From: Lentzea waywayandensis
Lineage (GTDB): Bacteria; Actinomycetota; Actinomycetes; Mycobacteriales; Pseudonocardiaceae
Direction of reading: 5' to 3'
NCBI RefSeq assembly: GCF_900115955.1
Contig: NZ_FOYL01000003.1
Coordinates: forward strand, 901,117 to 965,116
DNA: 64,000 nucleotides
The position numbers and the translations under genes were made by a program. The notes under the pieces were generated by a model. That model saw only the letters and a program-made list of their open reading frames with translations. It searched no databases and was not told the DNA's origin. The stretch's first letter is position 1; every line of letters starts with the position of its first letter. Of the stretch, positions 11,614-43,822 are shown in pieces.

Positions 11614-11805
11614 TCAGCCGCGCACGACCTTGCCGGCCTTCAGGCAGGACGTGCACACGTTGATCCGCTGGCGCTGCGAGGCCGAAACCTTGGCGCGCAC
11701 AGACTGGATGTTCGGGTTCCAGCGGCGGTTCGTCTTCCGCTGGGAGTGCGAAACCGAATGGCCGAAGCCCGGCCCCTTGCCACAGACGTCGCACACGGCA
11801 GCCAC
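11614..11805 (-). CDS. rpmB: 50S ribosomal protein L28, zinc-binding form
   Basis: A 63-residue ribosomal protein. It begins [14 protein letters not shown] and ends with [14 protein letters not shown], so both CxxC pairs are present and it is the zinc-binding (C+) type. Many actinobacteria also have a zinc-free paralog under Zur control elsewhere. The GTG at 11805 lies eight bases from an AGGAG site. It is divergent to the DhaL-like gene, a common arrangement with recG next. Confidence 0.96.
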
Positions 11806-11940
11806 GTCAGCCACTCCTTCAGGTTCCTCAAGCGGTAAGTCTCGCGTCCCGGTGGGCGCGCAAGCGTGCACAAGCCTCAACCGGGCACGGCAACTCAACG
11901 AGGGTAGCCGGTGGCATCACCTGCGACCAAACCGGGTGGA

Positions 11941-11946
11941 TACTCT
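11941..11946 (+). promoter_or_regulatory. -10 box TACTCT for the DhaL-domain gene
   Basis: TACTCT followed by exactly seven bases and the ATG at 11954. The same TACTCT-N7-start layout is found at smc. Confidence 0.5.
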
Positions 11947-11953
11947 CGCCGCC

Positions 11954-13564
11954 ATGCAGGTCATGGATGCGGTCGCGGTGCGCAGATGGGCAGACGCCTG
12001 CGTGCGGTCGTTGGACGCCAATCGGGAGTCGATCGACCAGATCAACGTCTTTCCCGTGCCGGATGGTGACACAGGTACGAACCTGCTGCACACGATGCAG
12101 TCGGCGCTCGACGCGCTGCTGCGTTCGCCCATGTCGACAGTGGGGGACGCGCTGTCGGCGCTCGCCCGCGGCGCACTCGCCGGGGCGCGGGGGAACTCGG
12201 GCGTGATCCTGTCTCAGGTGCTCAGGGGCCTGGCGGAGACCGTGCAGGAGGTGTCGCTGGTCACCGGCACGGCGTTGCGCAAGGGCCTGCACCGGGCCGA
12301 TGAGCTGGCCACGGCCGCTGTGTCCAAGCCCGTTCCCGGCACTGTCCTGTCCGTGCTGCACGCCGCGTCCGAGGCCGCTCGTGACTGCAAGTCGGACGAA
12401 CTGGACGACGTGGTGATGGCGGCGTCGCGCGCGGGTGCCGTCGCACTGGCCGATACGCCCCGTCAGCTCGCCGTGCTGGCCAAGGCCGGGGTGGTCGACG
12501 CGGGCGGACGAGGGCTCGTTGTGTTGTTGGACACATTGGCCGCGGTGATCACCGGCCAGAGTGTGGAAACACCGATGGACGCGCCCTTGCTGCCGCGCAC
12601 GCCGGAGTCGCTGACGACCGAGCGCGAGAGCGGGTCGTCGGAGTTCGAGTACGAGGTCATGTACCTGCTCGACGACACCTCGGACGAGGCGGTGGCCGAG
12701 TTGCGCGCCCTCTTGAACGGGCTGGGCGACTGCGTGTCGGTCGTGGGGGACGGGGCCTCGTTGTGGACCGTTCACGTGCACTGCAACGACATCGGCGCGG
12801 CAGTCGAGTCGGGTGTGCGCGCCGGCCGTCCGCACCGCATTACGGTGGCGCGGTTCGCTGATCAGATCACCGCGCAGGCTTCTCGGTTCGTGCGCGACCG
12901 GGCGATCGTGGTGGTGGTGAGCGGCGCCGTGGACCTGTTCCGCGCGGAAGGCGCCGCGGTGTTCGACCTCGCGTCTACTACGGCCACGCCCACGGACCTG
13001 TTGTCGGCCATCGTGTCGACGCGCGCGCGTCACGTCGCGGTGCTGCCAGGTGATCCGGACATCCGTACGGCTCTGGATGAGGCCGTGGCGTACGCACAGG
13101 CCGCCGGACAGGACGTAGTGGTGGTGCCGACGTTCTCGCCCGTGCAGGCCCTCGCGGCGTTGGCGGTGCACGATTCCTCTAGGCGCGCTGGTGACGACGT
13201 TGTCGCCATGGCCGAGGCCGCCGCCGCCACGCGCCGTGGTGAACTCTCGATCGCCGCCGACGAGGCCCTCACGTGGGTGGGCCGCTGCCAGCCGGGCGAC
13301 CTGCTGGGCATGCTGGACGGCGAGGTCGTGCTGATCGAGCCGGGTCCCGCGGCGCCGGAGTCGTTGATGGACCTGTCCTGCCGCCTGATCGACCGCATGC
13401 TGGCGGGCGGCGGCGAGCTGGTGACGGTGATCCTGGGCGCCGACGCGCCCGATGGCCTGACCGAGGTGCTGGAGGACCACGTGCGGGTCACCCATCCGGA
13501 GGTCGAGGTGACGGCGTATCCGGGCGGACAGCCGGACACGGTCATTTTTGTCGGTGTCGAGTAG
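11954..13564 (+). CDS. DhaL/DegV-type kinase, FakA (YloV)-like
   Basis: A 536-residue protein with an N-terminal DhaL nucleotide-binding domain (NVFPVPDGDTGTNLLHTM, then GARGNSGVILSQVLRG). The later region has features of the FakA/YloV C-terminal domain (FEYEVMYLLDD). FakA phosphorylates fatty acids held by FakB (DegV) partners in Firmicutes. Actinobacterial homologs commonly precede recG, as here, but their substrate is not firmly known. ATG at 11954 and ATG at 11963 are both possible starts; the first fits the -10 spacing. recG follows after 14 bases. Confidence 0.88.
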   Translation: MQVMDAVAVRRWADACVRSLDANRESIDQINVFPVPDGDTGTNLLHTMQSALDALLRSPMSTVGDALSALARGALAGARGNSGVILSQVLRGLAETVQEVSLVTGTALRKGLHRADELATAAVSKPVPGTVLSVLHAASEAARDCKSDELDDVVMAASRAGAVALADTPRQLAVLAKAGVVDAGGRGLVVLLDTLAAVITGQSVETPMDAPLLPRTPESLTTERESGSSEFEYEVMYLLDDTSDEAVAELRALLNGLGDCVSVVGDGASLWTVHVHCNDIGAAVESGVRAGRPHRITVARFADQITAQASRFVRDRAIVVVVSGAVDLFRAEGAAVFDLASTTATPTDLLSAIVSTRARHVAVLPGDPDIRTALDEAVAYAQAAGQDVVVVPTFSPVQALAALAVHDSSRRAGDDVVAMAEAAAATRRGELSIAADEALTWVGRCQPGDLLGMLDGEVVLIEPGPAAPESLMDLSCRLIDRMLAGGGELVTVILGADAPDGLTEVLEDHVRVTHPEVEVTAYPGGQPDTVIFVGVE

Positions 13565-13578
13565 TTCAATAGGGCGCG

Positions 13579-16500
13579 ATGATCTCCTTCGACGACAAGC
13601 TGCAGCCGTTGCTCGGCAAGAAGACCGCCGACGCACTGGAGACCGGCCTCGGCCTCACGACGGTCGGCGACCTGCTGCGCCACTACCCGCGCCGCTACGA
13701 CGAGCGCGGGAAGCTGACCGACATCAGGTCGCTGGAAATCGACGAGCACGTCACGGTGCAGGCCGAGGTCCGCAAGTGCCAGAAGCGCCAGATGAAGGCG
13801 CGCCGCGGCCAGATGACCGAGGCCGTCATCACCGACGGCACCTCGGAGCTGCACCTGGTGTTCTTCGGCAAGCCCGCGTTCGTCGCCGAGCAGGAGCTCC
13901 TGCCGGGCACGCGGGCGTTGTTCGCCGGCAAGGTCGGCCGCTACCGGCAGAACCTGCAGCTGGTGCACCCGGCGTTCGAGGTCCTCACCGCGGAGCAGGA
14001 CGGATCGTCGTTCCTGCAGGCCTTCCTGCCCGTCTACCCGGCGTCGCAGCACATCAACACGTGGAACATCGCGAACTGCGTGAAGCAGCTCCTGGAGATC
14101 TGGGACGGCGTGCCGGAGGACCCGCTGCCGGAGGACTTCCGTCTCGAGCAGGGCCTGATCGGCCTGGAGGACGCGCTGCGGTCGATCCACCGGCCGGACA
14201 GCTGGGCGCAGATCTCCGTCGCGCAGCTGCGGCTGAAGTGGGACGAGGCGCTGGCCGTGCAGCTGGCTTTGGCGCAGCGTCGCAAGGCTTCCACAGCTCG
14301 TCCGGCACCTGCCTGTGCGCGCAGGTCCGGCGGCATCCTGGACGCGTTCGACGCGCGGCTGCCGTTCACGCTGACGGCGGGCCAGGTTGAGGTGGGTTCG
14401 CAGGTCTCCGCTGATCTTGAGTCGACTGTGCCGATGAACCGGTTGTTGCAGGGCGAGGTCGGCTCGGGCAAGGCTCAACCGCTCGACTCGCTGGTCCTCA
14501 CGCCTACCGGTTTCCGCCGCATGGGTGATGTGCACATCGGAGACGAGGTGATCGCCGCCAGCGGTGAGGTCACGGTGGTGACCGGTGTCTTTCCTCAGGG
14601 CGAGCGCGATGTCTATCGGGTGGTTCTGTCCGATGGCCGCAGCGTTGAGTCCGATTTGGAACATCTATGGGCTGTCAACACCACCGTGCGCCGGGACAGG
14701 GGCAATCCCCTCAAGGTCCTGACCTTGAGGGAGATTCGGGACGACCTCACGACCTCGAACGGTGCGTCCAAATGGCATCTGCCCGTGGTGACAGCGCCGG
14801 AACTGGACTGTCTGTCGGAACGGTCGTTGGATCCGTATCTGCTCGGGCTGCTCATCGGGGACGGGTCACTCTTGAACGGGCGCATCGTGTTCACCAGCGC
14901 TGATCCGGAGTTGCTGGTCGAGCTGATGGCCGCGCTTCCACGAGGAGCGCACTTGGTCAAATCTCCCTCAGCGCGAAAGTACGACTGGTACGTCCAAGGG
15001 TGTCGCAGAGGAACGAACCCCGTGCTCGATGCGCTGCGTGACCAGGGCGTATACGGCCACCGAGCCAAGGACAAGTTTCTGCCGGAGAACTATCTGGTCG
15101 CGCCTGTCAAAGACAGGCACGCGTTGTTGCAGGGTCTTCTGGACACTGACGGCACGCTGAACAGCGAGCACGGTTCCAACGTCACCTTCCTGTCGGCGTC
15201 GCCCAAGCTCGCGGACCAGGTCGCATGGCTGGCCGAGTCGCTCGGGGGCACCGGCAAGGTCAGGCCGGTTGTCAAGATGGGAAACACATACCACCTGGTC
15301 AGCCTTCGCCTGCCGAACGAGTTCCCGCCGTTCCGGCTCACACGGAAGGCTGAGCTCGTCAAGGAACGCACGAAGTACGAGAAGCCCGTGCGGGCGATTC
15401 GTGCGGTCGAGTTTGTCGGTCGTAAGCCCGTGCAGTGCATCTCTGTTGCACACCATGACCAGCTCTACGTCACCGACCACTTCGTCGTCACTCACAACAC
15501 GATGGTCGCGTTGCGCGCCATGCTCCAGGCCGTCGACGCGGGCCGTCAGTCCGCGATGCTCGCACCCACGGAAGTCCTTGCGGCACAACATGCTCGCTCG
15601 TTGACCGAGATGCTCGGCGACCTCGCCCAGGCGGGCCAGCTGGGCGGCGCGGAGGACGCGACCCGCGTGACGCTGCTGACCGGCTCGATGAACACGGCCC
15701 AGCGCCGTCAGGCGTTGCTCGACATCGTGACCGGCGAGGCGGGCATCGTCGTCGGCACGCACGCGATCATCCAGGAGAAGGTGGAGTTCCACTCCCTGGG
15801 CCTCGTCGTGGTCGACGAACAACACCGCTTCGGCGTGGAACAACGAGCGGCGCTTTCGGCACGCGGCGAACGGGAGAACCCGCACGTGCTCGTGATGACC
15901 GCGACCCCGATCCCGCGCACGGTGGCCATGACGGTCTACGGCGACCTGGAAGTCTCGGCTCTGCGCGAACTGCCCGGCGGCCGCTCGCCGATCAAGACCT
16001 CGGTCGTCCCAGTCCGCGAAAAGCCCGCCTGGCTGGACCGCGCCTTCGCCCGAGTGCGCGAGGAGGTGGCGAAGGGCCACCAGGCGTACTTCGTCTGCCC
16101 GCGCATCGGCGACGAGGAACCGGCGAAGTCCGACGACGAGGACAAGCGCCCAGCCCTGTCCGTGATCGACGTGGCAACGATGCTCGCGCAGGGCCCGTTG
16201 CGCGGCCTGCGAATCGAAATCCTGCACGGCCGCATGCCCCCGGACGAGAAGGACGCCGTGATGCGCGCCTTCGCGGCCAACGAGGTCCACGTCCTGGTGG
16301 CCACCACCGTCATCGAGGTAGGCGTCAACGTCCCGAACGCCACCGTCATGGCCATCATGGACGCGGACCGCTTCGGCGTTTCCCAGCTCCACCAGCTCCG
16401 AGGCCGGGTGGGCCGAGGCAGCGCGCCGGGCCTGTGCCTGCTGGTAACCGAAATGCCGGAGATGACGGCCACGATGGAACGCCTGCGTGCCGTCGAGTCC

Positions 16501-16761
16501 ACTCTGGACGGCTTCGAACTGGCCCAGCTGGACCTCGAACTGCGCCGCGAGGGCGACATCCTCGGCGCCGCGCAGTCAGGCCGCCGCTCGGGCCTGAAGA
16601 TGCTGTCCCTGCTGCGCGACGAGGACATCATCGAGGACGCCCGCACGGCGGCGCAGCAGGTGGTGGACGCCGATCCGGACCTTGCCGAGCATCCAGGGCT
16701 GGCGGGGATGGTGGCGACGCTGCTGACGGAGGAACGCGCGGACTTCCTGGAGAAGACCTAG
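13579..16761 (+). CDS. recG: ATP-dependent DNA helicase RecG interrupted by an intein
   Basis: RecG remodels stalled replication forks and branched DNA. The 1060-residue reading frame contains a 342-residue in-frame insert (residues 299-640); without it the protein is 718 residues, normal for the family. Before the insert lies the wedge/OB region and the start of Walker A (GEVGSGK). After it come Thr641 completing Walker A, the DEQH box (VVVDEQHRFGVEQRAAL), TATPIPRT, and TTVIEVGVNVPNATVM. The insert splits the ATPase P-loop, so the helicase should be inactive until splicing. Preceded by the DhaL-like gene. No frameshift is present. Confidence 0.97.
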   Translation: MISFDDKLQPLLGKKTADALETGLGLTTVGDLLRHYPRRYDERGKLTDIRSLEIDEHVTVQAEVRKCQKRQMKARRGQMTEAVITDGTSELHLVFFGKPAFVAEQELLPGTRALFAGKVGRYRQNLQLVHPAFEVLTAEQDGSSFLQAFLPVYPASQHINTWNIANCVKQLLEIWDGVPEDPLPEDFRLEQGLIGLEDALRSIHRPDSWAQISVAQLRLKWDEALAVQLALAQRRKASTARPAPACARRSGGILDAFDARLPFTLTAGQVEVGSQVSADLESTVPMNRLLQGEVGSGKAQPLDSLVLTPTGFRRMGDVHIGDEVIAASGEVTVVTGVFPQGERDVYRVVLSDGRSVESDLEHLWAVNTTVRRDRGNPLKVLTLREIRDDLTTSNGASKWHLPVVTAPELDCLSERSLDPYLLGLLIGDGSLLNGRIVFTSADPELLVELMAALPRGAHLVKSPSARKYDWYVQGCRRGTNPVLDALRDQGVYGHRAKDKFLPENYLVAPVKDRHALLQGLLDTDGTLNSEHGSNVTFLSASPKLADQVAWLAESLGGTGKVRPVVKMGNTYHLVSLRLPNEFPPFRLTRKAELVKERTKYEKPVRAIRAVEFVGRKPVQCISVAHHDQLYVTDHFVVTHNTMVALRAMLQAVDAGRQSAMLAPTEVLAAQHARSLTEMLGDLAQAGQLGGAEDATRVTLLTGSMNTAQRRQALLDIVTGEAGIVVGTHAIIQEKVEFHSLGLVVVDEQHRFGVEQRAALSARGERENPHVLVMTATPIPRTVAMTVYGDLEVSALRELPGGRSPIKTSVVPVREKPAWLDRAFARVREEVAKGHQAYFVCPRIGDEEPAKSDDEDKRPALSVIDVATMLAQGPLRGLRIEILHGRMPPDEKDAVMRAFAANEVHVLVATTVIEVGVNVPNATVMAIMDADRFGVSQLHQLRGRVGRGSAPGLCLLVTEMPEMTATMERLRAVESTLDGFELAQLDLELRREGDILGAAQSGRRSGLKMLSLLRDEDIIEDARTAAQQVVDADPDLAEHPGLAGMVATLLTEERADFLEKT
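14473..15498 (+). mobile_element. RecG intein with LAGLIDADG homing endonuclease, class 3-like
   Basis: A 342-residue intein inserted between Lys and Thr of Walker A GSGKT. It begins with Ala1 instead of Cys/Ser and ends THN followed by extein Thr. Trp66 lies two residues after block B His64, Cys322 is in block F (PVQCISV), and Thr340 precedes His341-Asn342. Together with Ala1 these match the Trp-Cys-Thr triplet of class 3 inteins, in which Cys322 would act as the first nucleophile. Homing endonuclease motifs are YLLGLLIGDG (122-131) and LLQGLLDTDG (218-227), so it may still be mobile. The DNA is less GC-biased at third positions than flanking recG, consistent with transfer. Confidence 0.95.
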
Positions 16762-19868: not shown

Positions 19869-22800
19869 ATGTTCCGCAAGGTTCTTGTCGCCAACCGCGG
19901 CGAGATCGCGATTCGCGCGTTCCGAGCCGCCTACGAACTGGGCGCGGGAACGGTCGCCGTCTTCCCTCATGAGGACCGGAACTCGCTCCACCGGCTGAAG
20001 GCGGACGAGTCCTACGAGATCGGCGAGCCCGGACATCCCGTCCGCGCCTACCTTTCCGTCGAGGAGATCATCAAGGCCGCCCGCAAGGCCGGTGCCGACG
20101 CGATCTACCCGGGTTACGGCTTCCTGTCGGAGAACCCGGAGCTCGCGATGGCGTGCCGTGAGGCAGGTCTCACCTTCATCGGCCCCGTGGCCGAGGTTCT
20201 GGAGCTGACTGGCAACAAGGCGCGCGCCATCGCGGCCGCCCGCGAGGCCGGGCTGCCGGTGCTGGAGTCGAGCCCGCCGTCGTCCGACATCGACGAGCTG
20301 CTCGAAGCGTCGAAGACGATGCGCTTCCCGGTCTTCGTGAAGGCCGTCGCCGGTGGTGGTGGCCGCGGCATGCGCAAGGTCGACGACCCCTCCGCGCTGC
20401 GCGAGTCCCTCGAAGCGGCGTCGCGCGAGGCGGAGTCCGCGTTCGGCGACCCGACCGTGTTCCTCGAACAGGCCGTGGTCGAACCGCGCCACATCGAGGT
20501 GCAGATCCTCGCCGACGGCCAGGGCAACGTGATCCACCTGTTCGAGCGCGACTGCTCAGTGCAGCGGCGCCACCAGAAGGTCATCGAGATCGCGCCCGCG
20601 CCGAACCTCGCGCCCGAACTGCGTGACCGCATCTGCGCCGACGCGGTGAAGTTCGCGAGGCACATCGGCTACCGCAACGCCGGCACCGTGGAGTTCCTGC
20701 TCGACCCGCAGGGCCACTACGTCTTCATCGAGATGAACCCGCGCATCCAGGTCGAGCACACGGTCACGGAAGAGGTGACCGACGTCGACCTGGTGCAGTC
20801 GCAGATGCGCATCGCGTCGGGCGAGACGCTGGACGACCTGGGCCTGTCCCAGGAGACCGTCCAGCTGCGCGGCGCGGCGCTCCAGTGCCGCATCACGACC
20901 GAGGACCCCGCCAACGGGTTCCGCCCGGACACCGGCACGATCAGCGCCTACCGCTCGCCCGGTGGTTCCGGCATCCGCCTCGACGGCGGCACGGCGGGCG
21001 CCGGCATGGCCATCAGCCCGCACTTCGACTCGATGCTCGTGAAGCTCACGTGCCGCGGCCGCACCTTCTCCCTCGCCGTCGCCCGTGCGCGCCGTGCGAT
21101 CGCGGAGTTCCGCATCCGCGGTGTGTCGACGAACATCCCGTTCATCCAGGCCGTGCTGGACGACCCGGACTTCTACGAGGGCCGCGTCACCACGTCGTTC
21201 ATCGAGAAGCGCCCGCACCTGCTGACCGCGCGCCACTCGGCCGACCGCGGCACGCGCCTGCTGACCTACCTCGCGGACGTCACGGTCAACCACCCGAACG
21301 GCACCCGCCCGACCGCCGTCGACCCGCGCGAGAAGCTGCCGGTCGTCGACCTGAACGCCGAGCCGGCCCCCGGCTCCAAGCAGAAGCTGGTCGAGCTCGG
21401 CCCCGAGGGCTTCGCGCGGTGGCTGCGGGAGAGCAAGGCCGTCGGCGTCACGGACACGACGTTCCGCGACGCCCACCAGTCGCTGCTCGCCACCCGAGTA
21501 CGCACCAAGGACCTGCTCTCCGTCGCACCGCACGTGGCGCGCATGACGCCGGAGCTGCTGTCCCTGGAGTGCTGGGGCGGCGCGACCTACGACGTGGCGC
21601 TGCGGTTCCTCGCGGAGGACCCGTGGGAGCGCCTCGCGTCGTTGCGCGAAGCGGTGCCGAACATCAACCTGCAGATGCTGCTGCGCGGCCGCAACACGGT
21701 CGGCTACACGCCGTACCCCGAGGCGGTCACCAAGGCGTTCGTGCAGGAGGCGACGAACACCGGCATCGACATCTTCCGGATCTTCGACGCGCTGAACGAC
21801 GTCGAGCAGATGCGCCCGGCGATCGAGGCCGTGCGCGAGACCGGGACGGCGGTCGCCGAGGTCGCGCTCTGCTACACGAGCGATCTGTCCAATCCGGACG
21901 AACGTCTGTACACACTGGACTACTACCTCAAGCTCGCCGAGCAGATCGTCGGCGCCGGCGCTCACGTGCTGTGCGTCAAGGACATGGCCGGCCTGCTGCG
22001 GGCACCCGCCGCGTCGCGCCTGATCACCGCGCTGCGCAAGGAGTTCGACCTCCCGGTCCACCTCCACACGCACGACACGGCGGGCGGCCAGCTCGCGACC
22101 TACCTGGCCGCGATCCAGGCGGGCGTGGACGCGATCGACGGCGCGACCGCGTCGATGGCGGGCACGACCTCGCAGCCGCCGCTGTCGTCGATCGTGGCGC
22201 TGACCGACCACACCGAGCGCTCCACCGGTCTCAACCTGCAGAACGTCTGCGACCTGGAGCCGTACTGGGAGTCCGTGCGCAAGATCTACGCGCCGTTCGA
22301 GTCCGGCATCCCCGGCCCGACCGGCCGCGTCTACCACCACGAGATCCCCGGTGGTCAGCTCTCGAACCTGCGCACGCAGGCCGTCGCTCTCGGTCTCGGC
22401 GAGAAGTTCGAGGAGATCGAGTCGATGTACGCGGCCGCCGACCGCATGCTCGGCCACCTGGTGAAGGTGACGCCGTCGTCCAAGGTCGTCGGTGACCTCG
22501 CGCTGCACCTCGTGGGCGCGGGCGTCGCACCGAAGGACTTCGAGGCGGACCCCGGCAAGTTCGACATCCCGGCGTCGGTGATCGGCTTCCTGCACGGCGA
22601 GCTGGGCGACCCGCCCGGCGGCTGGCCGGAGCCGTTCCGCAGCAAGGCCCTCGAAGGCCGCCCCGCCCCGAAGCCGGTCGAGGAGCTGTCCGCCGAGGAC
22701 CAGGCGGGTCTCGCCGACGACCGGCGGGCGACGCTGAACAGGCTGCTGTTCCCGGCGCCCACCAAGGAGTTCCGCACGCACCGCGACGCCTACGGTGACA

Positions 22801-23246
22801 CGTCGGTGTTGCGCTCCAAGGACTTCTTCTACGGCCTGCGTCCCGGCGAGGAGTACTCCGTCGACCTGGAGCCGGGCGTCCGGCTGCTGATCGGCCTGGA
22901 GGCGATCTCCGAGGCCGACGCGCGGGGCATCCGCACGGTCATGGCGACCATGAACGGCCAGCTGCGCCCGATCCAGGTCCGCGACCGTTCGGTGGCCGCC
23001 GACATCCCGGCCGCCGAGAAGGCCGACCGCACGAACCCGAACCACGTGGCGGCCCCGTTCGCCGGCGTGGTGACGGCGGCGGTGGCCGAGGGCGACCGGG
23101 TCGACGCCGGTCAGACCGTCGCGACCATCGAGGCCATGAAGATGGAGGCCGCGATCACCGCCCCGAAGGCGGGTGTCGTGCAGCGCCTGGCGTTGCGCGG
23201 TGCCCAGCAGGTCGAGGGCGGCGACCTCCTGATCGTCCTGGAGTAA
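19869..23246 (+). CDS. pyc: Pyruvate carboxylase
   Basis: Biotin-dependent anaplerotic enzyme making oxaloacetate from pyruvate and bicarbonate. All three parts are in one 1125-residue chain: N-terminal biotin carboxylase (KVLVANRGEIAIRAFRA; ATP site GGGGRGM; EMNPRIQVEHTVTEE), carboxyltransferase TIM barrel (DTTFRDAHQSLLATR; LCVKDMAG; HLHTHDTAG), and the C-terminal biotin carrier domain with EAMKME. The ATG is preceded by a GGGAGG ribosome site. A strong hairpin follows, so it is probably monocistronic. Confidence 0.98.
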   Translation: MFRKVLVANRGEIAIRAFRAAYELGAGTVAVFPHEDRNSLHRLKADESYEIGEPGHPVRAYLSVEEIIKAARKAGADAIYPGYGFLSENPELAMACREAGLTFIGPVAEVLELTGNKARAIAAAREAGLPVLESSPPSSDIDELLEASKTMRFPVFVKAVAGGGGRGMRKVDDPSALRESLEAASREAESAFGDPTVFLEQAVVEPRHIEVQILADGQGNVIHLFERDCSVQRRHQKVIEIAPAPNLAPELRDRICADAVKFARHIGYRNAGTVEFLLDPQGHYVFIEMNPRIQVEHTVTEEVTDVDLVQSQMRIASGETLDDLGLSQETVQLRGAALQCRITTEDPANGFRPDTGTISAYRSPGGSGIRLDGGTAGAGMAISPHFDSMLVKLTCRGRTFSLAVARARRAIAEFRIRGVSTNIPFIQAVLDDPDFYEGRVTTSFIEKRPHLLTARHSADRGTRLLTYLADVTVNHPNGTRPTAVDPREKLPVVDLNAEPAPGSKQKLVELGPEGFARWLRESKAVGVTDTTFRDAHQSLLATRVRTKDLLSVAPHVARMTPELLSLECWGGATYDVALRFLAEDPWERLASLREAVPNINLQMLLRGRNTVGYTPYPEAVTKAFVQEATNTGIDIFRIFDALNDVEQMRPAIEAVRETGTAVAEVALCYTSDLSNPDERLYTLDYYLKLAEQIVGAGAHVLCVKDMAGLLRAPAASRLITALRKEFDLPVHLHTHDTAGGQLATYLAAIQAGVDAIDGATASMAGTTSQPPLSSIVALTDHTERSTGLNLQNVCDLEPYWESVRKIYAPFESGIPGPTGRVYHHEIPGGQLSNLRTQAVALGLGEKFEEIESMYAAADRMLGHLVKVTPSSKVVGDLALHLVGAGVAPKDFEADPGKFDIPASVIGFLHGELGDPPGGWPEPFRSKALEGRPAPKPVEELSAEDQAGLADDRRATLNRLLFPAPTKEFRTHRDAYGDTSVLRSKDFFYGLRPGEEYSVDLEPGVRLLIGLEAISEADARGIRTVMATMNGQLRPIQVRDRSVAADIPAAEKADRTNPNHVAAPFAGVVTAAVAEGDRVDAGQTVATIEAMKMEAAITAPKAGVVQRLALRGAQQVEGGDLLIVLE

Positions 23247-40090: not shown

Positions 40091-40137
40091 ACGCGCAGGT
40101 CAAGGCCCGCGTCCCGCATCATCCGCAAGCGTTTGGG

Positions 40138-40143
40138 TACTCT
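40138..40143 (+). promoter_or_regulatory. -10 box TACTCT for smc
   Basis: TACTCT followed by exactly seven bases and the GTG at 40151. Supports that start over in-frame codons upstream and predicts a leaderless transcript. Confidence 0.5.
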
Positions 40144-40150
40144 GCCCGGC

Positions 40151-43100
40151 GTGCATCTCAAGAGCCTGACGCTGAAGGGCTTCAAGTCCTTCGCCTCGGC
40201 TACCACGCTGCGCTTCGAGCCCGGCATCACCTGTGTGGTCGGCCCCAACGGGTCCGGCAAGTCCAACGTGCTCGACGCGCTGCGCTGGGTGATGGGCACG
40301 CAGGGCGCCAAGGACCTGCGCGGCGGCAAGATGGAGGACGTCATCTTCGCCGGCACGTCCGGCCGCGCGCCGCTCGGTCGCGCCGAGGTGACGCTGACGA
40401 TCGACAACGCCGACGGCATGCTGCCGATCGAGTACACCGAGGTGTCGATCACCCGCCGCATGTTCCGCGAGGGCGCCACCGAGTACGAGATCAACGGCAA
40501 CTCGTGCCGCCTGATGGACATCCAGGAACTGCTGTCGGACTCCGGCATCGGCCGCGAGATGCACGTGATCGTCGGTCAGGGCCAGCTCGCCGCGATCCTC
40601 GAGTCCAAACCGGAGGAACGGCGCGCGTTCATCGAAGAGGCCGCCGGCGTCCTCAAGCACCGCAAGCGCAAGGAAAAGGCGCTGCGCAAGCTGGAGGCGA
40701 TGCAGGCGAACCTGACGCGCCTCACCGACCTCACCGCGGAACTGCGCCGCCAGCTCAAGCCTCTCGGCAAGCAGGCCGAGATCGCCCGGCGCGCGCAGGT
40801 CGTCCAGTCCGAGCTGCGGGACAGCAAACTCCGCCTGCTCGCCGACGACCTGGTGACGCAGCGCGAGACCATCGCGCAGGAGGAGCACGACGAGGCGAAG
40901 GCCCGCGTGCGCCGCGCCGAGGTCGAGAAGTCGTTGCAGGCCGCGCAGTACCAGCAGAACGAGCTGGAGGAGCGGGTCGCCGCCGACTCGCCGAAGCTGC
41001 AGGCCGCGCAGGACACCTGGTACCGGCTGTCCGCTTTGGAGGAACGCCTCCGCGGCACCGTGCGCCTCGCCGCCGAACGAGCCCGTCACCTGTCCGACGT
41101 CGTGGACGCGCCCAGCAGGGGCCGCGATCCCGACGACCTCGACCGCGAGGCCGAGGAGACCGCCGAGATGGAGCTGGAGCTCCAGGAAGGCGTGACGGAG
41201 GCCCGCATCGCGCTGGCGGAGGCCGTGGAGACGCGCGCCGAACTGGAGCGCATGGTCTCGCAGGCGGAGAAGGCGCACATCGCCGCCGTCCGCGCGATCG
41301 CCGACCGCCGCGAGGGCCTCGCCCGCCTGTCCGGTCAGGTGGAGGCGTTGCGCAGCAAGACGAGCGCGACCGCCGAGGAGATCGAACGACTGTCCGTCAC
41401 GCTGTCCGAGGCCTCCGAACGCGTCGAGTTCGCGTCGATGGAACTGGCCGAGGCACGCGAGATCACCGGCACCGAGGACGAGGACGACCACGGCCTCGAC
41501 GAACGCCACCACCAGGCCGTGCAGTCCAACGACGCGGCCAGGCAGCGCGTCGAGGAACTGGTCAAGGCCGAACGCACGGCGGAACGCGACATCGCGTCGT
41601 GGCGAGCCCGCGTCGACGCACTCTCGCTGGGCCTGACGCGCAAGGACGGCGCGGGCGCGCTGCTCGCGTCGGACGTGCCGGGCCTGCTGGGTTCCGTCGC
41701 CGCGCTGCTGACCGTCGAGCCCGGTTTCGAGGTGGCGCTGGCCGCCGCGCTCGGCCCGATCGCCGACGCCGTCGCGGTGTCGTCGGGCGACGGCGCGTTG
41801 CAGGCGCTGAAGCTGTTGAAGGAGAAGGACGCCGGCCGCGCGGGCGTGCTGATCGGCTCGTACGGGTCCACTGTGGACACGTCGCAGTGGGGCTACCTGC
41901 CGCACGGCGCGAGGTGGGCGATCGACGTCGTGCACGCGCCCGAGGCGCTGCGCCCGGCGTTGGCCCGTGCGCTCGATCGCCTTGCCGTGGTGGGAGATCT
42001 GGACACCGCGGCCGGGTTCCACGGCCGAGCGGTGACCCGGGAGGGCGACCTCTTCGGCACGGACTGGGCCGTCGGCGGCTCGGGTGCCCAGGGCCAGAGC
42101 GTCATCGAGGTGCAGGCCGCCGTCGACGAGGCGCAGGAGCAGCTCGCGACCGCCGAACGGGCGCTGGAGCACGCTTCGGCCGCGCTCGAAGGTGCCCGCG
42201 CCGAACAGCAGGCCCGCCGCAAGGTGCTCGACGCGGTCAAGGAGGCCATGCAGGAGGCCAAGGTCCGCCAGGCCCGCTCCGGCGAGCGGCTGAACCGGAT
42301 GGCCACGGCCGTGCGGTCGGCGGAGGCCGAGGTCAGCCGCATCTCCGAGCAGCGCGCCAAGGTCGAGCGGTCGCGCGAGGAAGCCCTGATGAAGCTGGGC
42401 GAGCTCGAAGAGCGGCTGCTGATGGCCGAGGAGGAGCAGACCCTCGACGACGAGCCGGACACCGAGCAGCGCGACGAACTGGCCGCGGAGCTCGCTCAGG
42501 CCCGCCAGGGCGAGATGGACGCACGTCTGGTGCAGCGCACCGCGGAAGAGCGCGCACGGGCGTTGCAGGGCAAAGCAGAGGGCCTGCGTCGTGCCGCGCG
42601 CGCCGAGCGTGAGGCACGCGAACGCCATGCGCGCGCGACCCAGCACCGCGCCCGTGGTGCCGTGGTGGCGAAGGCCGTCGCTCGCGGCGGTGAGCAGGCG
42701 CTGGAACGCATCGAGATCTCGCTGTCCCGTGCGGCCCGTGAGCGCGACCAGGCCCAGGAACGCCGTTCGCAGCACGAACTCCTGCTGACCCAGGTGCGCA
42801 ACGTGGCACGGGAGATGTCCGGTGAGCTGGAGAAGCTCGTCGACGCCGTGCACCGCGACGAGGTCCTGCGCGCCGAGCAGCGCATGCGCATCGAACAGCT
42901 GGAAACCAAGATCGCCGAGGACTTCGGCATCGGCCTGGACGACCTGATCAACGAGTACGGCCCCGAGGTCATGGTGCCCGCGTCGGCCGCCGAGATGGCC
43001 GAGTACCAGGCCGCCAAGGAACGCGGCGAGCAGGTCTCCGAGCCGCAGCCGATGCCGTTCGACCGCGACACCCAGACCCGCCGAGCCAAGCGCGCCGAAC

Positions 43101-43822
43101 GCGACATGTCGTTGCTGGGCAAGGTGAACCCGCTGGCGCTGGAGGAGTTCGCGGCGCTGGAGGAGCGCTACAAGTTCCTCTCCACGCAGCTGGAGGACAT
43201 CAAGGACACCCGCCGCGACCTGCTCACCGTTGTGAAGGAGGTCGACGACAAGATCCTCGAGGTCTTCACGCTGGCCTACGAGGACGTGGCGCGCGAGTTC
43301 GAGATCGTCTTCAAGGTCCTGTTCCCGGGCGGCGACGGGCGGCTGGTGCTGACCGAGCCCGACGACATGCTGACCACCGGCATCGAGCTGGAGGCCCGCC
43401 CGCCCGGCAAGAAGGTCAAGCGCCTGTCGCTGCTCTCCGGTGGCGAGAAGTCGCTGGCCGCGGTCGCGATGCTGGTCGCGATCTTCCGCGCCCGCCCCTC
43501 ACCGTTCTACGTGATGGACGAGGTCGAGGCCGCGCTGGACGACACGAACCTGCACCGGCTGATCGGCCTGTTCGAGCAGCTGCGGGAACGGTCGCAGCTG
43601 CTGATCATCACGCACCAGAAGCCGACCATGGAGATCGCGGACGCCCTGTACGGCGTCTCGATGCGTGGTGACGGCATCTCGCAGGTGATCTCGCAGCGGC
43701 TGCGCAACTCCAGCGACGAGCCCGCGCGTGCGGCGACGAAACCCGCTGCCGCGCCCGTGGAGACCGCTGAGACCGCTGAGACCGCGGAACCTTCGCCTGA
43801 ACCGGCGGAAGCAGAGGCCTGA
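40151..43822 (+). CDS. smc: Chromosome segregation protein SMC
   Basis: A 1223-residue SMC ATPase of the condensin complex. The N-terminal head starts LKSLTLKGFKSFA and has Walker A GPNGSGKSN. Two long coiled coils surround a hinge near residues 510-650 (GLLGSVAALLTVEPGFEVALAAALG). The C-terminal head has the signature LSGGEKSLAA and Walker B FYVMDEVEAALDD. A Pro/Glu/Thr-rich acidic tail of about 30 residues follows the head. In many actinobacteria ftsY comes next; here it is 5.6 kb away. Confidence 0.97.
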   Translation: MHLKSLTLKGFKSFASATTLRFEPGITCVVGPNGSGKSNVLDALRWVMGTQGAKDLRGGKMEDVIFAGTSGRAPLGRAEVTLTIDNADGMLPIEYTEVSITRRMFREGATEYEINGNSCRLMDIQELLSDSGIGREMHVIVGQGQLAAILESKPEERRAFIEEAAGVLKHRKRKEKALRKLEAMQANLTRLTDLTAELRRQLKPLGKQAEIARRAQVVQSELRDSKLRLLADDLVTQRETIAQEEHDEAKARVRRAEVEKSLQAAQYQQNELEERVAADSPKLQAAQDTWYRLSALEERLRGTVRLAAERARHLSDVVDAPSRGRDPDDLDREAEETAEMELELQEGVTEARIALAEAVETRAELERMVSQAEKAHIAAVRAIADRREGLARLSGQVEALRSKTSATAEEIERLSVTLSEASERVEFASMELAEAREITGTEDEDDHGLDERHHQAVQSNDAARQRVEELVKAERTAERDIASWRARVDALSLGLTRKDGAGALLASDVPGLLGSVAALLTVEPGFEVALAAALGPIADAVAVSSGDGALQALKLLKEKDAGRAGVLIGSYGSTVDTSQWGYLPHGARWAIDVVHAPEALRPALARALDRLAVVGDLDTAAGFHGRAVTREGDLFGTDWAVGGSGAQGQSVIEVQAAVDEAQEQLATAERALEHASAALEGARAEQQARRKVLDAVKEAMQEAKVRQARSGERLNRMATAVRSAEAEVSRISEQRAKVERSREEALMKLGELEERLLMAEEEQTLDDEPDTEQRDELAAELAQARQGEMDARLVQRTAEERARALQGKAEGLRRAARAEREARERHARATQHRARGAVVAKAVARGGEQALERIEISLSRAARERDQAQERRSQHELLLTQVRNVAREMSGELEKLVDAVHRDEVLRAEQRMRIEQLETKIAEDFGIGLDDLINEYGPEVMVPASAAEMAEYQAAKERGEQVSEPQPMPFDRDTQTRRAKRAERDMSLLGKVNPLALEEFAALEERYKFLSTQLEDIKDTRRDLLTVVKEVDDKILEVFTLAYEDVAREFEIVFKVLFPGGDGRLVLTEPDDMLTTGIELEARPPGKKVKRLSLLSGGEKSLAAVAMLVAIFRARPSPFYVMDEVEAALDDTNLHRLIGLFEQLRERSQLLIITHQKPTMEIADALYGVSMRGDGISQVISQRLRNSSDEPARAATKPAAAPVETAETAETAEPSPEPAEAEA

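Follow-up and report, generated by a model that had tools for sequence, protein, structure and literature searches.

Class 3 inteins lack a nucleophile at residue 1 and carry a Trp at position 12 of block B, a Cys at position 4 of block F and a Thr at position 5 of block G (B:12, F:4 and G:5, together WCT; PMC3196547). Their splicing route has been established (PMC5222942, PMC3196547, PMC7664689), and for Bvi IcmO, which needs Cys F:4, membership of class 3 rests on experiment (PMC5222942). Mycobacterial class 3 inteins of DnaB and PhoH are in print, the latter in the legend to Fig. 6a of PMC6195587, and inteins are known to insert into P-loops (PMC5050341). A table of bacterial proteins with inteins includes RecG, in a passage that gives no class, organism or site (PMC5874633); PMC1193525 does not name it as an intein host. 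No class 3 intein in RecG is named in the passages on RecG inteins and class 3 inteins that we found, and an earlier naming in the survey of Tori and Perler 2011 is possible. On the question of prior description, on which an earlier note on this DNA was unsure, RecG is therefore already known as an intein host. Nor is the present insert unique, as at least 80 relatives occupy the RecG site.

Here we describe an insert in recG of Lentzea waywayandensis. With a probability of roughly 0.9, we read it as a full-length class 3 intein at the Lys/Thr bond of the RecG Walker A motif (a slash marks the interrupted bond throughout), whose splicing would restore the ATPase site and which carries a putative homing endonuclease; continued movement is the best-supported reading.

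The insert in recG and its boundaries

The window, a 64,000-nucleotide stretch of contig NZ_FOYL01000003.1 in a genome of 10.15 Mb and 33 contigs, contains an uninterrupted open frame of 1060 codons at 13579-16761 on the + strand, as are all parts of recG and its insert given below. The frame is RecG according to NCBIfam NF008167 (1093.9 bits vs a cut-off of 995), and Pfam recognises the RecG wedge, DEAD, helicase C-terminal and RecG C-terminal domains. Its exteins share 98% identity with their counterparts in Lentzea albidocapillata recG. Residues 299-640 are not RecG and form an in-frame stretch of 342 residues, exactly 14473-15498, that starts with AQPLDS and finishes with VVTHN. This stretch divides the Walker A motif at GSGK/T: the N-extein (RecG residues 1-298, 13579-14472) ends with the GSGK codons at 14461-14472, and the C-extein (15499-16761) opens with the Walker A Thr (Thr+1, 15499-15501) followed by the remainder of RecG. 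Upstream lies a FakA-like/DAK2 gene (11630-13564), and farther off come two more genes, one pyruvate-carboxylase-like (19869-23246) and one for an SMC protein (40133-43822). None of 10 ORFs near recG matched a phage or plasmid Pfam family; seven matched cellular families and three had no match.

All 24 Lentzea genomes searched have recG. The GSGKT motif is unbroken in 18 of these genes, and in the other six the intein, opening with AQPLDSLVLTP, comes directly after GSGK, so the empty and filled sites fix both boundaries of the insert to the residue. An interruption found in 6/24 congeneric genes, with GSGK/T uninterrupted in 18/24, is not a chance feature of one sequence. The earlier note, which had placed the insert and its residues from the letters alone and had suggested the comparison with recG of close relatives, was exact in every coordinate and residue number on re-reading of the frame, and the split of Walker A that it described is borne out by the empty congeneric sites.

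The residues expected of a class 3 intein are all found where that note had put them. Alignment identifies the non-nucleophilic Ala1 (14473-14475), the block B His64 (B:10, 14662-14664) within the DxxH motif D61-L-E-H64, Trp66 at B:12 (14668-14670), Cys322 at F:4 (15436-15438), which is the presumed initiating nucleophile, and in block G Thr340-His341-Asn342 (15490-15498), comprising the T of WCT and the C-terminal His-Asn. Between the splicing blocks lies a LAGLIDADG endonuclease region, residues 115-285 (14815-15327), with approximate limits of our choice. Pfam LAGLIDADG_3 (PF14528) scores 40.9 bits vs a cut-off of 22.5, and the Asp of each motif is intact, as had been noted before: Asp130 in LIGDG (14860-14862) and Asp226 in DTDG (15148-15150).

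Class assignment and predicted fold

Class 1 inteins have Cys, Ser or Thr at residue 1, where the insert has Ala, and class 2 (KlbA-type) inteins differ from it in signature and host, since WCT is present and the host is RecG. The absence of a residue-1 nucleophile, Trp B:12, Cys F:4, Thr G:5, the position in a tree and the predicted HINT fold all agree with class 3. The tree was built by maximum likelihood from the splicing domains of 76 inteins (148 columns, none of them residue 1 or a W, C or T position of the signature; midpoint root). It held 50 WCT inteins (17 RecG, 10 PhoH, 4 DnaB and 19 other), a chosen subset of the loci, as well as 25 actinobacterial inteins of class 1 and a single KlbA row as the class 2 reference. 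The class 1 rows came from 33 candidate loci, of which L138 was left out because residue 1 is not Cys, L157 because of a wrong C-terminal end, and six more because a C-terminal end was not found.

In the splicing-domain alignment His, Trp, Cys and Thr stand at the aligned places in 50/50 WCT rows, the insert included, and F:4 is Asp in all 25 class 1 rows and in KlbA. A branch with support 100/96 parts the 50 WCT inteins from the 25 class 1 inteins and KlbA on the midpoint-rooted tree from which the signature columns had been removed; within the same tree the PhoH class 3 inteins form a separate clade (100/99). The RecG inteins are not a proven clade (two changes on the tree; one change in 27% of bootstrap trees), because L174, the intein of Burkholderia vietnamiensis plasmid pBVIE03, sits on a very long branch loosely among the RecG rows. 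L174 is taken to be Bvi IcmO from its strain, plasmid location, WCT signature and Cys+1. A placement of the insert in class 1 or class 2 is rejected on signature and tree. The class 3 type proposed in the earlier note, which had also called for a tree of the three classes, is supported by signature, tree and fold; its description of such inteins as best known from phage DnaB was too narrow, as relatives also interrupt genes that are annotated, or that we read, as PhoH, terminase-like, SNF2/DarB, TraD and secretion ATPase.

An AlphaFold2 model of the insert was computed from 42 sequences, the window copy and 41 of 160 loci from the genome-scan and viral-contig sets, and reached a pLDDT of 95.1 and a pTM of 0.92. 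The top VIA-align match of the model is PI-SceI (1vde_A; Z 27.1, rmsd 3.0, 321 aligned), a class 1 intein. Among endonuclease-free structures the class 3 DnaB intein 6bs8_C comes first (Z 20.2, rmsd 1.5, 123 aligned, 34% identity), followed by 6rix_B (Z 19.6) and then by Prp8 and gp41-1 inteins (Z 18.5 to 18.7). A sequence search of the PDB likewise put a class 3 DnaB intein on top (6rix, E 6e-9). The predicted fold therefore matches the HINT fold of solved class 3 inteins in the splicing domain, and that of PI-SceI over the whole chain.

Distribution and probable movement at the RecG site

The insert has many relatives at the same site. Scanning a single genome for each species gave 379, of which the best 80 were used; the record of the window itself is not among them. 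All of these 80 are RecG inteins, at GSGK/T in 74 and GAGK/T in 6, in Lentzea, Saccharothrix, Actinomadura, Streptomyces, Actinacidiphila and one Thermoleophilaceae MAG. Within the family, at least 16/390 genomes carry the RecG intein: 6 Lentzea, and in genus g8, which is Saccharothrix for its three full-length genomes, 3 with full-length and 7 with shortened copies. At least 4/396 genomes drawn from the phylum carry it as well (G417, G741, G571 and G412, the last a 300-residue form). Both counts are lower bounds, with an E limit of 1e-20, at most five candidates scored per genome and a part of the matches opened.

The residues presumed to serve splicing (A1, D61, H64, W66, C322, T340, H341 and N342) are invariant in 80/80 of the best 80 of 379 relatives. 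In the same set 10 copies have another residue in place of Asp130 and 7 in place of Asp226, so that 15/80 lack at least one of the two (p 3e-5 against the 0/80 losses of splicing residues), and decayed copies are under-sampled, as these are the best-scoring rows, found with search patterns of which one covers part of the second LAGLIDADG motif. The L. cavernae copy has lost Asp226 and two Saccharothrix copies have lost Asp130; the shortened inteins of the seven g8 genomes have 225-230 residues and no endonuclease core. Judged from these sequences, the endonuclease residues decay among relatives and the splicing residues do not. Four forms occur at one site, namely empty, full, Asp-dead and shortened, and the window copy is full, with both Asp.

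Presence within Lentzea is patchy. On a recG tree of the 24 genes, built on 2010 extein columns and with 10 of its 21 inner branches open, the 6 holders need 5 changes, at least 4 of them forced by starred branches; shuffled labels gave a mean of 5.6 changes, with 167 to 179 of 500 shuffles as low. Intein and host also differ in their distances. Between the window copy (genome G000) and L. albidocapillata (G005), the exteins differ by 6.4% and the inteins by 21.4% (dS 0.24 vs 1.19), and between L. albidocapillata and its subsp. violacea (G022), 3/1026 intein bases and 36/2010 extein bases differ (p 0.0002). GC3 of the window copy is lower in the intein (0.775) than in the recG exteins (0.936 and 0.893), and the high intein dS may partly stem from weaker codon bias. 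Over the 15 pairs of holders, which are not independent, intein and recG distances give a Spearman coefficient of 0.46 (p 0.08), and with the G005-G022 pair removed one of 0.33 (p 0.24; the pairs again not independent). AU tests of recG-like topologies for the intein (p 0.122, 0.172, 0.215 and 0.24) found no significant conflict of the intein and recG trees, and nine windows in the recG flanks gave no signal of co-conversion among holders.

The insert has several traits of a homing intein: two LAGLIDADG motifs with Asp, intein-free alleles and a patchy presence. Its mobility is supported by that patchiness, by precise empty sites and by intein distances at odds with those of recG, all read from sequence, with topologies in no significant conflict. 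Homing, which the earlier note had called plausible, gains from the same evidence, with the reservation that the AU values lie at p 0.12 to 0.24.

Filled and empty recG alleles both occur on Rhodococcus plasmids. The best matches in a plasmid collection are three of these (NZ_CP120357, NZ_CP050179 and NZ_CP040720), with about 48% identity (48.7%), in a RecG-like helicase gene (550 bits with TIGR00643, short of the cut-off of 659) interrupted at GSGK/T. Four plasmid records hold that gene without the insert (identity 86 to 93%, with 71% of the query covered), and in the two opened, pRDE01 and pRho-VOC14-C342, GSGK/T is unbroken. An identity of 48% rules out the Rhodococcus plasmid intein as a recent donor to Lentzea. 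No recent viral donor was seen, the top identity being 46% among the best 80 of 586 viral-contig relatives, 39% among 5 in a further set and 40.6% among the 40 listed of 540 phage records with a match.

Phages and viral contigs have similar inteins, whose host genes carry annotations such as terminase, replicative helicase, SNF2/DarB and PhoH. In the viral loci L255-L334, the best 80 of 586, L286 and L307 could not be parsed; among the 78 that could, 77 have the full signature and 46/56 distinct insertion sites are at GK/S or GK/T, a P-loop-type bond. The 25 class 1 inteins, with 15 distinct sites, show this bond at 3 of them. The excess in the viral set is a lead only, as the two sets were sampled differently and P-loop insertion is familiar from inteins in general.

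Other inteins were met in the course of this work. In the same genome, DnaB is interrupted at GVGK/S by a class 3-type mini-intein of 230 residues (L002, G000:C22:590944-591321), and a similar match exists in 24/24 Lentzea genomes, with the GVGK site in all 12 loci opened. The genome of the window also has two class 1-type inteins, one of 485 residues after EGDSALG in what we take to be a gyrase B-like context (L136, G000:C13:4707-4943) and one of 305 residues after YRGCSHACTY (L137, G000:C26:69390-69614). In other Lentzea, class 3-type inteins of 295 to 361 residues stand at PhoH MRGR/T (L008-L014 and L026-L030), and these lengths suggest a graded loss of the endonuclease region; PhoH and RecG inteins occur together in G005, G009 (L. 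flava), G011 and G022. A further Lentzea genome has an intein-like insert in a 947-codon frame (L015, G013:C18:618794-619684), the remainder of which presumably is TROVE/Ro60-like. In a same-family relative, a WCT intein interrupts a conjugal transfer protein that is VirD4-like (L123, G166:C1:9946843-9950925). The conjugative plasmid pKAZ5 carries a class 3-type intein at GSGK/T in its TraD coupling-protein gene (L173, KR827394 27934-30906), with similar matches in four named enterobacterial plasmids.

Splicing, alternative readings and known systems

By analogy with characterised class 3 inteins, Cys322 would attack the peptide bond after Lys(-1) and form a branched thioester, Thr+1 would then take over the N-extein, and Asn342 would cyclise as the exteins are joined, restoring GSGKT and the RecG ATPase site. 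Unspliced RecG should lack ATPase activity because the Walker A Lys and Thr stand 342 residues apart. The LAGLIDADG endonuclease, for its part, would cut intein-free recG at the P-loop codons, and repair would copy the intein in.

The same break in Walker A would also be expected of a dead insert that simply inactivates recG, its unspliced product being presumably without ATPase, and we consider this very improbable: the 1060 codons form one open frame with the RecG domains intact, every splicing residue is present, and the intein is under purifying selection, with dN/dS of 0.06 to 0.12 in five comparisons with the window copy (up to 0.19 in other pairs; 0.08 to 0.14 in the endonuclease part of the window copy). 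Hardly more probable is a class 2-type (KlbA-type) intein. The insert and the KlbA intein share Ala1, but KlbA has Asp at F:4 and Val at both the Trp and the Thr places, and the insert groups with the WCT inteins on the tree built without those columns. Cys322 is, moreover, unchanged in 80/80 relatives (best 80 of 379), and Cys F:4 to Ala abolished splicing in three known class 3 mini-inteins (PMC5222942). An old intein inherited vertically with many losses, and now immobile, has more to recommend it and is still unlikely. It agrees with the AU tests, which keep recG-like topologies at p 0.12 to 0.24, with the lack of a co-conversion footprint and with the four shortened copies of the Saccharothrix genus code, which form one clade on the tree. 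Against it, the scatter among Lentzea equals that of random labels, the inteins of G005 and G022 are closer than their host genes and those of G000 and G005 far more distant, the GC3 of the intein is below that of recG, and the window copy and 65/80 relatives (best 80 of 379) retain both Asp.

The earlier note had also raised a response to redox through Cys322. In its fullest form, oxidation of Cys322 would hold RecG unspliced and ATPase-dead until stress ends, and this would be the reason that the intein is kept. Cys322 is the presumed catalytic cysteine; in Msm DnaBi1, oxidation links the catalytic Cys118 to Cys48 and oxidative stress inhibits splicing (PMC6195587), and H2O2 inhibits N-cleavage of MchDnaB1 (PMC7664689). 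The place of DnaBi1 Cys48, however, is Val47 in the insert (alignment to 6bs8), Val in 80/80 relatives and Ile in the Rhodococcus plasmid copy. The other cysteines of the insert are 113 and 177, which are Cys in just 8/80 and 5/80 of the relatives (both counts from the best 80 of 379), although Cys113 is kept in 7/7 shortened copies. Control of the DnaBi1 kind is therefore not supported, and its disulfide switch is rejected for the RecG intein, where the partner cysteine is absent. Simple direct oxidation of Cys322 is possible. Of the congeners, 18/24 manage without the intein, and we regard a redox switch that explains its retention as improbable.

A full-length, class 3, probably mobile intein thus remains our reading of the insert. 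More tentatively, and with the balance leaning against it, RecG GSGK/T may be the home of one large, still cycling actinobacterial class 3 lineage in which empty, competent, Asp-dead and endonuclease-less alleles coexist, with plasmid recG as a shuttle between chromosomes. The locus documents a chromosomal repair helicase as host of a probable class 3 intein with full, endonuclease-bearing copies, and offers a natural series of empty, full, Asp-dead and endonuclease-less sites within one bacterial family. It also allowed the disulfide switch of DnaB to be tested on another class 3 intein, to which its extension was not supported.

Among known systems, the mycobacterial DnaB class 3 mini-inteins (Msm DnaBi1, 6bs8; M. 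chimaera DnaB1, 6rix) share with the insert the HINT fold, the lack of a residue-1 nucleophile, WCT, DxxH, THN and P-loop insertion (PMC6195587); they have no endonuclease, carry a Cys48 redox partner that the insert lacks, and show 34% identity to it in the splicing domain. PhoH class 3 inteins also have WCT, are mostly of LAGLIDADG-type length, show 35 to 41% identity and are found in Lentzea too, but sit at MRGR/T of PhoH rather than at GSGK/T of RecG and form their own clade (100/99). Bvi IcmO of the B. vietnamiensis G4 plasmid, as which we take L174, shares WCT and is class 3 by experiment (PMC5222942), and differs as a 142-residue mini-intein with another host protein and Cys+1. PI-SceI (the VMA1 intein) has the same whole-chain architecture of HINT and LAGLIDADG domains (Z 27.1), with 19% identity. 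The Rhodococcus plasmid intein resembles the window copy in its RecG GSGK/T site, WCT and full length (353 residues), and differs in its host gene, a plasmid RecG-like helicase.
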